Assembly (NCBI RefSeq): GCF_014203155.1
Contig: NZ_JACHIK010000020.1
Location: 1-64,000 of the forward strand
Direction of reading: 5' to 3'
Source: Shinella fusca
GTDB lineage: Bacteria; Pseudomonadota; Alphaproteobacteria; Rhizobiales; Rhizobiaceae
DNA: 64,000 nucleotides
The first letter of the stretch is position 1. Every line of letters starts with the position of its first letter. Position numbers and translations under genes: made by a program. The notes under the pieces are model-generated. The model made no database searches, was not told the origin of the DNA, and saw nothing but the letters and a program-made list of their open reading frames with translations. Positions 17,888-35,099 of this stretch are shown one piece after another.

Positions 17888-18036
17888 ACCCCCCTCTGCC
17901 CTGCCGGGCATCTCCCCCTCAAGGGGGGAGATTGGATGGAGCGCTGGCTTCCTTCCCATCAAAAGAGGAATTGAGAGCAGGCCACCTGCCGATCTCCCCC
18001 CTTGAGGGGGAGATGCCCGGCAGGGCAGAGGGGGGT
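17888..18036. repeat. RIME-like palindromic repeat (family A, copy 4)
   Basis: Complete family A element between the acyl-CoA dehydrogenase and enoyl-CoA hydratase genes. Arms ACCCCCCTCTGCCCTGCCGG and complement, with CCCCCTCAAGGGGGG hairpins and a variable 50-bp centre. Confidence 0.9.
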
Positions 18037-18111
18037 ATACTCCACCCGCATTTTTTACAGACGATCCCCTGCCGTTCGCGGGATGAGGGGTAGACGCCCG
18101 AGGAGACGACA

Positions 18112-21150: not shown

Positions 21151-21303
21151 CCCCCCCTCTGCCTTGCCGGGCATCTCCCCCACAAGGGGGAGATCGGATG
21201 GAGAGATGTTTTGACAACCTTGAGCGTTGCTATTTGAGCAATGCTTTTGCGTCCTGCCAATCTCCCCCCCTTGTGGGGGAGATGCCCGCAGGGCAGAGGG
21301 GGT
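21151..21303. repeat. RIME-like palindromic repeat (family A, copy 5)
   Basis: Family A copy between the convergent chemoreceptor and RNA methyltransferase genes. The right arm reads GATGCCCGCAGGGCAGAGGG and has lost one G against the consensus, showing some decay. Confidence 0.88.
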
Positions 21304-30697: not shown

Positions 30698-31840
30698 TCA
30701 CGGCGCCAGAAGCAGTTTTCCCTTGCGCGCCGGATCCTCCTGCCGGGCGAGGGCCGCGGCAAGCTCGGACAGCGGAAAGACGCCGTCGATCGCCGAGCCG
30801 AGCACGCCGGCGCGGATCCCGGAAAAGCTGCGCGCGAAAGCGTCCTCGATGGCCGCGCGCGGGGCGGAATGCACCCAGTTGCGCAGCCAGAGGAAGGAGA
30901 AGGAGACCGCCTCGCGCCGCGCCGAAACCAGCACCGGGTCGAGCTGCGCGCCGGAGAGCGCGCCATACTGGATGAAGGCGCCGCCGGAGCGGATCCGCCG
31001 GAAGAGCGCATCTCCGGCGGCCCCGCCGACGGCATCGAGCACCGCATCGAGCATCGGGGCGGACTGGACGGCGATCTCGCCGGAAAAGCCCTCCCGCAGC
31101 CGCGCGGCCGTGGCGGGGCTGCGCACCAGCGCGACGGGCCGGAAGCCGGCGTCGGCCAGCAGCGCCAGCAGCATCTTCCCGATGGCCGAGGCGGCGGCGG
31201 TGACGCCGACGCGCCGCCCGTCCGCCGCGCCGAAATGCGCGCTGACGGCCTCGACCAGCCGGAAGGCCGTCAGCGGGTTCACATAGGCCATGGCCGCCTG
31301 ATCGTCCGAAAGATCGTCCGAAAGATCGTCCGGCACGGCAAAGCACCATTCGGCGGGGCGGACGAGATATTCCTGCCAGAGCCCGCTTGCGCCGATGGGC
31401 AGGACGCGCTGGCCGACGAAGAAGCGGGAGGCGGTTTGCGGCTCACCCCCCTCTGGCCTGCCGGCCATCTCCCCCACAAGGGGGGAGATCGGATGGGGCA
31501 CCGTTTTCCTCCCCTTCAGCGACGCAGCATGAGCAGGGTTCCAGCCTCCTGCCGATCTCCCCCCTTGTGGGGGAGATGGCCGGCAGGCCAGAGGGGGGTA
31601 GGCTTCCGCCACCCCATCTCCCATCCGCACGATCTCGCCCACGCCCTCGAATCCGGGCACGAAGGGCAGGGTCGTGCGGCTGCGATAGGCGCCGGTGACG
31701 GGGATGAGGTCGGAAGGGTTGATCGCCGCGCGGCGGATGCGGATCTCCACCTCGCCGGGTCCGGGCGCGATGCGCTCCGCCTCTTCGATGCCGACCGCTT
31801 GCCGGGGCTCGCCGAACGCTCTAACAACGGCACGAAGCAT
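30698..31840 (-). CDS. Zinc-independent enoyl/quinone reductase (MDR family) with in-frame repeat insertion
   Basis: 380-aa medium-chain reductase of the 2-enoyl thioester / quinone reductase type, NADPH-dependent. The N terminus (MLRAVVRAFGEPRQAVGIEE, RAAINPSDLIPVTGAY) and the nucleotide-binding part (GVTAAASAIGKMLLALLADA) are normal. Between about residues 80 and 132 the protein contains a Pro/Gly-rich stretch (PPLACRPSPPQGG ... GGEPQTAS) encoded by a family A palindromic repeat inserted in frame. Without it, GDGVAEA would run into RFFVGQRVLPIGASGLWQEY, the usual family sequence and length (about 325-330 aa). A 12-bp tandem repeat (DDLSDDLSDD) lies a little downstream. Divergent from a thioesterase gene with starts 3 bp apart. 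Whether the enzyme is active is not known. Confidence 0.88.
   Translation of the reverse strand: MLRAVVRAFGEPRQAVGIEEAERIAPGPGEVEIRIRRAAINPSDLIPVTGAYRSRTTLPFVPGFEGVGEIVRMGDGVAEAYPPLACRPSPPQGGRSAGGWNPAHAASLKGRKTVPHPISPLVGEMAGRPEGGEPQTASRFFVGQRVLPIGASGLWQEYLVRPAEWCFAVPDDLSDDLSDDQAAMAYVNPLTAFRLVEAVSAHFGAADGRRVGVTAAASAIGKMLLALLADAGFRPVALVRSPATAARLREGFSGEIAVQSAPMLDAVLDAVGGAAGDALFRRIRSGGAFIQYGALSGAQLDPVLVSARREAVSFSFLWLRNWVHSAPRAAIEDAFARSFSGIRAGVLGSAIDGVFPLSELAAALARQEDPARKGKLLLAP
31300..31332. repeat. Tandem 12-bp repeat inside the reductase gene
   Basis: Unit GATCGTCCGAAA occurs twice in full, then once as GATCGTCCG. On the reverse strand it encodes the repeated tetrapeptide LSDD in the sequence VPDDLSDDLSDDQAAMAYV. 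One unit is probably the ancestral state, since the family normally has a single DDL/D step here. Slippage would add or remove four residues at a time without frame change. Confidence 0.75.
31445..31600. repeat. RIME-like palindromic repeat (family A, variant) inside a coding gene
   Basis: A complete family A element (arms ACCCCCCTCTGGCCTGCCGG and complement, hairpins CCCCCACAAGGGGGG and CCCCCTTGTGGGGG) sits inside the enoyl/quinone reductase gene. The measured core is 156 bp, a multiple of three, and contains no stop codon in the reductase frame. Arms read CTGGCCTGCCGGCCAT rather than CTGCCCTGCCGGGCAT as elsewhere, with compensating changes on both arms. No clear target-site duplication was seen here. 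Confidence 0.9.
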
Positions 31841-32269: not shown

Positions 32270-33439
32270 TCACGCGCGCCGGAAGAGCGCGGCGATCCCC
32301 ATGCCGCCGCCGATGCCCATCAGCGCAAGCCCTTCCGTGCCCGCCGGCTCTTCCCGCATCTGCGCGAAAAGCCGCGTGACGAGGATCGCGCCCGACGCGC
32401 CATAGGGATGGCCGAGCGCCAGCGCCCCGCCGTCGCGGTTGACGGATGCTGGATCGATGCCGAGCGCATCGAGGCTGGCGAGCACCTGTGCGGCGAAGGC
32501 CTCGTTGAACTCGGCGAAGGGGATTTTCGCCGCATCGAGCCCGGGGTTGCGTACGGCAAGCTTTTCCATGGCCGGCACGGGGCCGAGGCCGAGCAGGTTG
32601 GGATCGACCCCGGCCACCGCGCTGTCGACCACCTCCAGCAGCGGGGAAAGGCCGAGGGCGCGCGCTTCGGCCAGCGAGGTGACGAGCACCACGGCCGCGC
32701 CATCGTTGACCGGGCAGGCATTGCCCGCCGTCACCGTGCCGTCCGGCCGGAAGACGGGCTTTAGCGCGGCGAGCCTTTCCAGCGAGGTGTTTTCGCGCGG
32801 GCACTCATCGCTGCGAATGTCCCCGACAGGCACGATCTCGCCGTCGAACCGCCCGGCCCGCTGCGCGGCGACGGCGCGGCGATGGCTTTCAAGCGCGAAG
32901 GCATCCTGCCGTGCGCGGCCGATGCTGGCGTGGGCGGCGACGTTTTCCGCGGCAATCCCCATGTCCGGATCGCCCACCGAATCGGGCGCCATGCGGGCGC
33001 GGGGCACGGGCTCCGGCGTGCCGCCGGGCTCTGAAGCAGGGCGGAAGCGCAGATGCGCCCGGCTGGTGCTCTCGGTGCCGCCGGCAAGGTAGAAGCGGCC
33101 GGCCCCGGCCGCGATCAGCCGCGCGGCAAGGGCGATCGCCTCCAGCCCCGAGCCGCATTGCCGGTCCACCGTCATGCCGGGTATCGAGACGGGAAGGCCG
33201 GCCTCCAGCGCGGCAAGGCGCGCAAGGTTCCCGGCGCTGTTGGCCGCATTGCCGAGGATCACGTCGTCGACGGCACCGGGAGCAAGCCCCGTTTCGGCAA
33301 GGATGCGGCGGATGAGCGGCGCGGCAAGGCTTGCCGGCTCGACGGCGGCAAGCGATCCGCCCTTGCGGCCGATCGGCGTGCGGAACGCCGCGGCGATAAC
33401 GGGAATGCGCGCGGGATCAATAGAGCCGTTCGAGCGCAT
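32270..33439 (-). CDS. Thiolase-family protein with altered second active-site cysteine
   Basis: 389-aa thiolase-superfamily protein. The acyl-carrying Cys is present (MTVDRQCGSGLEAIALAARL, about residues 89-108), as is the catalytic His (GHPYGASGAILVTRL near 346). However, the C-terminal motif that is normally CxGGGxG reads GIGGGMG (about 376-382): the second catalytic Cys, which activates the thiol, is Gly. The thiol-transfer step would therefore be impaired or changed. It is the last gene of the bioM-bioN-bioY-ligase-thiolase run; its start lies inside the CoA ligase 3' end (overlap 23 bp). In-frame codon GGC versus expected TGC differs by one base. Confidence 0.9.
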   Translation of the reverse strand: MRSNGSIDPARIPVIAAAFRTPIGRKGGSLAAVEPASLAAPLIRRILAETGLAPGAVDDVILGNAANSAGNLARLAALEAGLPVSIPGMTVDRQCGSGLEAIALAARLIAAGAGRFYLAGGTESTSRAHLRFRPASEPGGTPEPVPRARMAPDSVGDPDMGIAAENVAAHASIGRARQDAFALESHRRAVAAQRAGRFDGEIVPVGDIRSDECPRENTSLERLAALKPVFRPDGTVTAGNACPVNDGAAVVLVTSLAEARALGLSPLLEVVDSAVAGVDPNLLGLGPVPAMEKLAVRNPGLDAAKIPFAEFNEAFAAQVLASLDALGIDPASVNRDGGALALGHPYGASGAILVTRLFAQMREEPAGTEGLALMGIGGGMGIAALFRRA

Positions 33440-35099
33440 CGCTGTCCTCCGCCACCCATTGCCGCACCGTCTTCGCCTCGACCTTGCCGGAGGGCGTGAC
33501 CGGCAGGGCGCGGCAGAGCCACAGCCGGCGCGGCTGCTTGTAGCGCGGCAGAACGGCGTCCATCGCCGCCTTCAGCGCCGCCGCCGTGAGGCCGGGCGCC
33601 GCCGGCTCGACCACGGCGACGAGCTCGCTGCCGAGATCGGCATGGTCGAGGCCGAACACGTGGGCGGCCCGCACGCCGGCAAGGCCGGTCAGCGCCGCCT
33701 CCACCTCGGAGGGATAGATGTTGTTGCCGCCGGAAAGCACCATGCCGCCGGAGCGGCCGAGAAGATGCAGCGTGCCGTCTTCTTGGAGGAAGCCGAGGTC
33801 GCCCACCGTGGCGAGCGTCCCGAAGCGCGCCGGCTCCGCGCCGAGATAGCCGGTGGCGACGAGCGGGCTTTCGACGAAGATCGTCCCCGTCTCGCCGGCC
33901 GGCAGCGCCGCGCCCGCATCGTCGCGAACCGAAAGCCGCACGCCCGGAAAGGCCTTGCCGACCGCGCTGGCGGAGGCGGCATCGCCCGGCGCGGTGACGG
34001 TGATGAAGCCGAGTTCCGACGCGCCGTAATATTCGCGCAGCGCCGCTTCAGGGAAATGCGCCGCGCAAAGCGCATGGTCGGCGGCCGTCAGCTTGGCGCC
34101 GGCAACGGTGACGGCCGAGACGGTGGTGACCGGCGCGCCTTCGCACAGCCGCCGCAGCATGGTCGGCACCAGAACGAGGCGGCGGATGCCCTCCGCCCGG
34201 ATCGCCGTCCGTGCTTCCACGGCATCGAAATGCCGGGCGGAATGGAAGGTCGCGCCGGCAAGCAGCGTCTCCGTCATCGCATAGAGCGCAAGGCCGTGGG
34301 CGAGGGGGCCGGGGGCATAGGTGCCGGTCTTGGCATCGATACCGAAGAACGGCGCGCCGCTCGCAAGGCTCACGCGCCAGGAGCGGCGGTCGCGGATGAT
34401 GGGCTTCGGATCGGCCGTGGTGCCGGAGGTGAAGACGATCAGGAACGGCCCGTCGTCGTCCCCTTCCGGCAGCGAGCAGGGTGATCGCCCATGGCGTTCG
34501 GCGGGTGCCACCTGCCCCTTCTCCCCAGCGGGGAGAAGGTCGCGGCAGCGGGATGAGGGGGAGCCGCTGGCAAGATGCTGAAGCCTTGCCCCCTCATCCG
34601 ACCCTTCGGGCCACCTTCTCCCCGGCGGGGAGAAGGGGAAAGAGGCAATAGCCTGCCCAATGCGATTTCCCTGCGGCAGCGGGGAAGCATCGGGTGCCGC
34701 GCTTTCGGCAAGGCGTAGCGCCTCGCCGCTTTTCCGGGCGGAAAGGAGGAGGTCGGGGCCCTCGGCGGTGACGACTACGTCGGGAGCGAGCTTTTCGAGA
34801 AGGCGCCCCCGCGTCGCTTCCGGCAGGTGCGGGTCGATCAGCGCGGCGCAGGTGCCGCCGGCCGTCGCGGCGGCGAAGGCGGCGGGAAAGAGCGCGTGGT
34901 TGCCGGTGAGAAGCGCGACGAGCCGGGTTTGCGGCCCGATAAGGCTTGCGCCCGCCGGGGCGAGCGCCGCGAAGGCGGCATGGGCCTGCCGGGCGGTCGC
35001 GGCAAGGCTTCCATAGGAAAGAACCCGGCCCTCGATCTCGAAGGCCGGGTTTGCGGGGATGCGCGCGGCGTGCCGTTCGAGGGCGCCGGAAAGCGGCAT
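33417..35099 (-). CDS. AMP-forming acyl-CoA ligase with in-frame repeat insertion
   Basis: 560-aa ANL-superfamily acyl-CoA synthetase. The ATP-binding loop IVFTSGTTADPKP lies at about residues 216-228; EYYGASELGFITV (A5), the GDLGFLQEDGTLHLLGRSGG stretch (A7) and VLSGGNNIYPSEVE (A8) follow, and TPSGKVEAK holds the catalytic Lys. Between about residues 140 and 208 the sequence is foreign (basic and Pro/Gly/Ser-rich). It is encoded by a 199-bp palindromic repeat flanked by an 8-bp direct repeat, and its removal gives SPLPEGDDDGPFLIVFTSGT. The substrate is unknown; position after bioY suggests a role in pimelate or related acyl-CoA supply, which is inference. Confidence 0.9.
   Translation of the reverse strand: MPLSGALERHAARIPANPAFEIEGRVLSYGSLAATARQAHAAFAALAPAGASLIGPQTRLVALLTGNHALFPAAFAAATAGGTCAALIDPHLPEATRGRLLEKLAPDVVVTAEGPDLLLSARKSGEALRLAESAAPDASPLPQGNRIGQAIASFPFSPPGRRWPEGSDEGARLQHLASGSPSSRCRDLLPAGEKGQVAPAERHGRSPCSLPEGDDDGPFLIVFTSGTTADPKPIIRDRRSWRVSLASGAPFFGIDAKTGTYAPGPLAHGLALYAMTETLLAGATFHSARHFDAVEARTAIRAEGIRRLVLVPTMLRRLCEGAPVTTVSAVTVAGAKLTAADHALCAAHFPEAALREYYGASELGFITVTAPGDAASASAVGKAFPGVRLSVRDDAGAALPAGETGTIFVESPLVATGYLGAEPARFGTLATVGDLGFLQEDGTLHLLGRSGGMVLSGGNNIYPSEVEAALTGLAGVRAAHVFGLDHADLGSELVAVVEPAAPGLTAAALKAAMDAVLPRYKQPRRLWLCRALPVTPSGKVEAKTVRQWVAEDSDALERLY
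34467..34681. repeat. RIME-like palindromic repeat (family B extended) inserted in the CoA ligase gene
   Basis: Element 34475-34673, with the identical octamer CGGCAGCG at both borders (34467-34474 and 34674-34681). The core has CCCCTTCTCCCCAGCGGGGA and the complementary arm ending GGGGAGAAGGGG. Outer ends read GCAGGGTGATCGCC and TGCGATTTCCCTGC, an inverted pair. Element plus one repeat copy is 207 bp (69 codons) and carries no stop in the ligase frame. A similar extended copy, in the opposite orientation, is at 37094. Confidence 0.92.

Follow-up and report, generated by a model that had tools for sequence, protein, structure and literature searches.

In-frame insertion of a RIME-like palindromic repeat in a reductase gene of Shinella fusca and at shared gene sites in other Rhizobiaceae

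A gene of Shinella fusca for a medium-chain dehydrogenase/reductase of the quinone/enoyl reductase type (positions 30698-31840, minus strand, 380 residues) carries within its coding sequence a copy of a dispersed palindromic repeat, here termed family A, which leaves the reading frame open. The gene lies in a 64,000-nucleotide stretch of contig NZ_JACHIK010000020.1 (hereafter the window). Very probably the insert is a RIME-like repeat whose translation yields a disordered loop that the protein tolerates, a situation known from the palindromic elements of Rickettsia. Under this proposal, a palindromic repeat of about 155 bp would have entered the loop between two strands of the reductase N-terminal domain in an ancestor shared by this genome and two same-genus relatives, and its length and frame would permit the ribosome to read through it. 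The enzyme would then carry about 60 extra residues as a disordered and presumably harmless surface loop, while the repeat itself would be selfish or neutral DNA surviving in genes only where frame and fold permit.

The element spans 31445-31600, and an inverted-repeat search of the window resolved it into a left arm (31445-31492), read second by the gene as ISPLVGEMAGRPEGG, and a right arm (31552-31599), read first as PPLACRPSPPQGGR. The arms are 48 nt each and 100% complementary, and the 59-nt loop between them (31493-31551) is poorly conserved among the orthologous inserts. In this genome the reductase ORF is open across the palindrome and the search for a disabling lesion in the gene recovered neither a stop nor a frameshift, which, together with the empty orthologous sites presented below, bears out the preliminary description of an in-frame palindromic repeat within an otherwise normal reductase gene. 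The length of 156 bp given there for the palindrome stands, but not the estimate of about 52 added residues: anchored comparison with 19 other loci gives a net insertion of 180 bp, or 60 codons (about 31427-31606, minus strand), because about 24 nt flanking the palindrome are also missing from the empty sites. Rfam yielded no matches in the window at gathering thresholds. The translation matches the Pfam domains ADH_N at residues 29-81, with the match ending after profile position 53 of 104, and ADH_zinc_N_2 at residues 265-380. An AlphaFold model (25 sequences, mean pLDDT 75.3) is confident over most of the fold, and its best Foldseek match is the putative NADPH:quinone reductase 3gms (E-value 1.5e-23, TM score 0.69 by query). 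Residues 84-134 have a pLDDT below 50 and lie between the strands at 65-73 and 145-148, as for a disordered loop between two strands; residues 1-19 and 47-59 likewise fall below 50. Elsewhere in the gene a 12-bp direct repeat (GATCGTCCGAAA) occurs three times at 31300-31335 and is read as repeated DDLS residues, as against a single DDLS in the reductase of one relative (G008).

The comparison of the insertion site covered 20 anchored loci, namely that of this genome, 18 from the same genus and one from another genus; the search had taken in 20 same-genus relatives, of which G006 and G016 contributed no orthologues. The insertion point is empty in 17 of these loci and filled at one identical place in this genome (G000; 180 bp) and in two relatives, G008 (189 bp) and G012 (187 bp). 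Among named Shinella and other Rhizobiaceae loci (L031-L057), whose species partly overlap the 20-locus set, all 27 have no extra residues at the site. The stretch does not, then, belong to the normal reductase, a point on which the preliminary description had sought the testimony of orthologues. That the stretch is an ordinary variable loop, palindromic by accident, might be imagined, since the loop between the two strands does vary somewhat among orthologues, yet the 17 empty loci and about 40 sequence-matched genome copies reduce its probability almost to nil, and the family-A copies elsewhere in the genome refute it. In the gene tree the three filled reductases are split from the other 17 with a local support of 0.898, the deeper rooting being weak, and their position on one side of this split fits a single insertion in a common ancestor. 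With a silent divergence of 0.22-0.59 among the three, the insertion is not a recent event. The G000 and G008 genes are 83-89% identical in the flanks and 63% in the insert region.

The insert is in frame in G000 and G008 and frame-broken in G012, and this break is what would speak for an inactive or decaying reductase, in which the insert is one step in gene loss. That account nevertheless appears quite improbable, as the frame is open in the other two genomes and the sequence next to the insert has an omega close to 0.2. This holds even past the G012 frameshift, where the C-part omega of the G012 gene (L003) against the empty genes is 0.198; a dead gene was accordingly rejected on the open frame and these ratios. 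For the three filled-filled pairs, omega is 0.212, 0.382 and 0.224 before the insert and 0.272, 0.171 and 0.226 after it. The corresponding medians for empty-empty pairs (120 for each part) are 0.176 (range 0.069-0.37) in the N part and 0.205 (range 0.14-0.313) in the C part. These values point to purifying selection beside the insert, with a dN/dS of about 0.2 as in the uninserted orthologues. The N-part value for G000-G012, 0.382, lies just over the empty-empty maximum of 0.37, and the medians of G000 against the empty genes (0.232 and 0.237) are slightly over the empty-empty medians; a slight relaxation of selection on the filled reductases is possible.

The 156-bp stretch matches at least 40 distinct places in its own genome, itself included (best-strand E-values from 9.7e-77 to 7.9e-22; 40 of 141 first-look candidates scored). 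The family-A arm motif, with up to two mismatches, occurs 126 times as against once for a reversed control pattern, and the sequence-matched copies together with these counts rule out a chance palindrome. The family-A unit is about 153-156 bp long with the ends CCCCCCTCTG and CAGAGGGGGG. Genome matches and gene calls place three further copies in the window, one adjoining or overlapping the start of an ispE-like gene (2114-2268) and two between genes (17888-18037 and 21152-21302). For 56 two-armed copies among those listed for the genome, one-armed copies being left out, a codon-model gene caller placed 47 between genes, 5 across the end of a gene and 4 within genes. One copy called intergenic (L089) is actually inside a PabC-like gene whose start had been placed too late, and the corrected figures are 46, 5 and 5. 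All five intragenic copies are in frame, namely those in the reductase, CobN (two), RibD and the PabC-like gene; the earlier statement that the family is elsewhere intergenic is hence right for most copies and wrong for the four others inside genes. The paired changes in the arms that had been reported are real: among 58 elements, CTGCCC..GGGCAT is found in both arms of 29 and CTGGCC..GGCCAT in both arms of 10, the remaining 19 being mixed or degenerate. The GEM frame is open in 53 of 72 readings of extragenic copies (other frames, 36 of 72 and 15 of 72), and all seven identified intragenic insertions, five here and two in relatives, read their second arm in it, which fits sieving by stop codons and perhaps also by peptide character. 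The notion that the arms are stop-free in all frames proved wrong, TGA being frequent in one arm-2 frame.

A palindromic insert of a second family (family B) lies in frame at 34503-34640 in a gene for an AMP-binding, acyl-CoA ligase-like protein (33417-35099, minus strand). The proximity of the two inserts had been taken in the preliminary description to suggest a local tendency of repeats to enter genes. This we reject because the CobN, RibD and PabC-like inserts sit on other contigs (C1, C8 and C6) and the CobN sites are used in other genera. The family-B insert is missing from 16 of 17 ligase orthologues, including those of G008 and G012, and represents an event separate from the reductase insertion and, judging by these orthologues, probably a younger one. 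Family B has four near full-length copies in the genome along with many half matches.

The pattern seen in the reductase, with filled and empty versions of one site, recurs at four other gene positions. The CobN gene on contig C1 (L085:963-5147) was found by gene calls and orthologue comparison to contain two in-frame family-A copies. Across 20 same-genus loci, CobN site 1 is filled in 9, all in frame, and nearly empty in 11, whereas site 2 is filled in frame in 6 and empty in 12, the other two having a frame-broken 95-nt insert (G012) and an in-frame 69-nt remnant. The RibD site is filled in frame in 4 of 20 such loci, with one frame-broken insert (G012), one short remnant and 14 empty sites. 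At the PabC-like site, inserts of at least 90 nt are present in 10 of 20, all in frame, of which 8 are of family A and 2 of other make-up. Beyond the genus we surveyed CobN in 24 hand-chosen, motif-rich genomes of other genera (30 loci), in which both anchors were found for site 1 in 14 loci and for site 2 in 18 (12 genomes). Inserts of at least 90 nt occur in 9 of these genomes at site 1 and in 8 at site 2, none of them breaking the frame; judged by peptide sequence, family A accounts for 6 and 5 respectively and other sequences for the rest.

Taking the five gene sites in this and other genera together, 48 of the 51 inserts of at least 90 nt have a length divisible by three, although related genomes are not independent in this count; the 51 are between 93 and 519 nt long, and those in frame are stop-free. 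These figures bear directly on the alternative that the insert is never translated, with the ribosome hopping over the hairpin or the mRNA losing the insert so that a protein of normal length results. A minimum free energy of -148.3 kcal/mol is predicted for a 195-nt stretch with the 48-bp perfect stem, a very stable structure, and PMC6649704, in the relevant part, reports that translation in yeast mitochondria bypasses palindromic elements. Skipping would, however, make frame and stops irrelevant, and the prevalence of in-frame, stop-free inserts renders this alternative very improbable and is as expected if the inserts are read through. The three frame-broken inserts, in the reductase, CobN site 2 and RibD, all belong to G012, which suggests that an insert can conflict with an open gene, unless assembly errors in hairpins are responsible; the breaks may be true or may be such faults, and the neighbouring genes in G012 are intact.

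Some of these sites appear to have received more than one kind of repeat. As read from translations, CobN site 1 of one relative (G019) has a family-B-like sequence and, after it, a peptide similar to the right end of family A, and the PabC-like site of two others (G016 and G001) has another repeat-like sequence in frame. If these translations are read correctly, the occurrence of several repeat families in one gene site would be the most unusual point of the analysis. Comparison of insert identity between orthologues and paralogues did not discriminate between a single old insertion and repeated entry, all gapped alignments of the elements scoring high. As a tentative idea, which we hold to be doubtful, certain protein loops in the Rhizobiaceae (two in CobN and one in the PabC-like protein) might be recurrent landing places, where unrelated palindromic families enter, replace each other and then decay without loss of frame, and DNA correction within coding sequence might keep the arms of translated copies paired.

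The pairing of the arms has a bearing on whether a function maintains the element, with the hairpin tuning mRNA or DNA or the peptide being useful. Between the G000 and G008 reductase inserts, each of the four differences in arm 1 has its mirror image among the five in arm 2, so that the arms stay paired while the loop diverges, and inserts persist at identical sites across species and genera, both of which would suit such a role. When the five sites are pooled, arm 2 mirrors 43 of the 118 differences in arm 1, against a mean of 16.7 and a maximum of 41 in 200 shuffles; the pairs in this count are partly interdependent, and indels in G012 put the arms out of register. Yet the mirroring is uneven, being clear for a single reductase pair and elsewhere weak or absent (0 of 10 in RibD, 6 of 33 at CobN site 2), most orthologues have no insert and decayed in-frame remnants exist, which together make retention for a function unlikely, if less so than gene decay or skipping. 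Arm pairing is kept in some inserts, and correction, conversion or selection may each account for it.

The best-known in-frame intragenic palindromes are those of Rickettsia, whose reduced genomes and intracellular way of life form part of the story, and Wolbachia reportedly has protein-coding palindromes that are likewise fused in frame inside genes. The Rickettsia palindromic elements are described, in the relevant part of PMC2229807, as repeats of 105-146 bp that are found between genes and in frame inside genes, many for conserved proteins, and PMC6649704, in the part concerned, adds that they lie in frame in genes and that repeat identity is lost over time. Family A resembles them, by description rather than by sequence, in being a palindrome in frame inside conserved genes and missing from orthologues. 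It differs in that its hosts are free-living, GC-rich Rhizobiaceae, that the element is longer, and that, unlike what that part of PMC6649704 describes, the reductase insert retains perfect arms although diverged species share it. RIMEs (Rhizobium-specific intergenic mosaic elements), in the portions of PMC2573895 and PMC2245857 that deal with them, are dispersed palindromic repeats of rhizobial genomes with dozens of copies, treated as intergenic; family A is like them, again by description and not by the RIME1 or RIME2 sequence, as a multi-copy palindromic repeat of Rhizobiaceae, and unlike them in that some of its copies are inside genes. Small palindromic repeats in ORFs of several bacteria, the intragenic REPs of the GTAG and CGTC families, provide a further parallel, including a gene with two inserts, and recB inserts whose sites nearly coincide in two Xanthomonas species (PMC3733652, parts on intragenic REPs). 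Family A shares with this part of the account its presence within ORFs, two inserts in one gene and sites shared between species, but its unit of about 153-156 bp stands apart from REPs, which are of 20-40 bp with GTAG/CGTC tetranucleotide tags; the same parts of PMC3733652 make no mention of Shinella, Ensifer, Mesorhizobium or RIMEs. As to the route of movement, which we infer and do not observe, a search for the RAYT-type domain Y1_Tnp (PF01797) gave no matches in this genome, the control search being positive in 5 of 14 known genomes, so that mobilisation of the REP type is not supported. Of MITE features, terminal inverted repeats are present, and the aligned empty and filled reductase sites, which represent old insertions, reveal no clear target-site duplication. 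Literature searches, with most subscription papers outside their reach, found no paper on RIME-like repeats inside Rhizobiaceae genes. The phenomenon is of a known kind, and the repeat family, set apart from the Rickettsia elements and RIMEs by description, is new, as are its hosts and the shared insertion sites. Because this RIME-like family sits in frame at corresponding gene sites of several free-living species and genera, nature supplies many proteins that exist both with the insert and without it; such pairs allow one to test whether insertions are neutral, costly or useful, and how coding sequence keeps a near-perfect palindrome.

Of the 121 Rhizobiaceae genomes sampled, 60 contain the family-A motif. 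Its plasmid matches, among those listed, come mainly from Rhizobium, Sinorhizobium and Shinella, and the best 40 matches listed of each search contained no further intragenic cases, the matches having no annotated gene under them or lying in unannotated records. In a genome of another genus (G094), 53 of 56 sampled two-armed copies are intergenic, two overlap a gene end and one is inside a gene, at CobN site 1; the intragenic share thus varies, being 1 of 56 there as against 5 of 56 here. One called gene of that genome (L247:2095-3153) ends within a family-A element, which provides its last residues and stop codon. Among 20 stretches of other same-genus genomes, a biased choice made for long open frames, same-frame coding on both sides of the element was seen in two, a glycosyltransferase-like gene (L126) and an ABC permease/ATPase ORF (L128). 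In the latter, from G018, permease and ATPase are joined as one ORF through the family-A element, possibly a gene fusion created by the insertion. On contig C18 of the present genome, at about 71.8-80.1 kb (L064, L108), five family-A elements form an array with a spacing of about 2 kb, in which elements of about 153 bp alternate with shorter ones of 118 bp.
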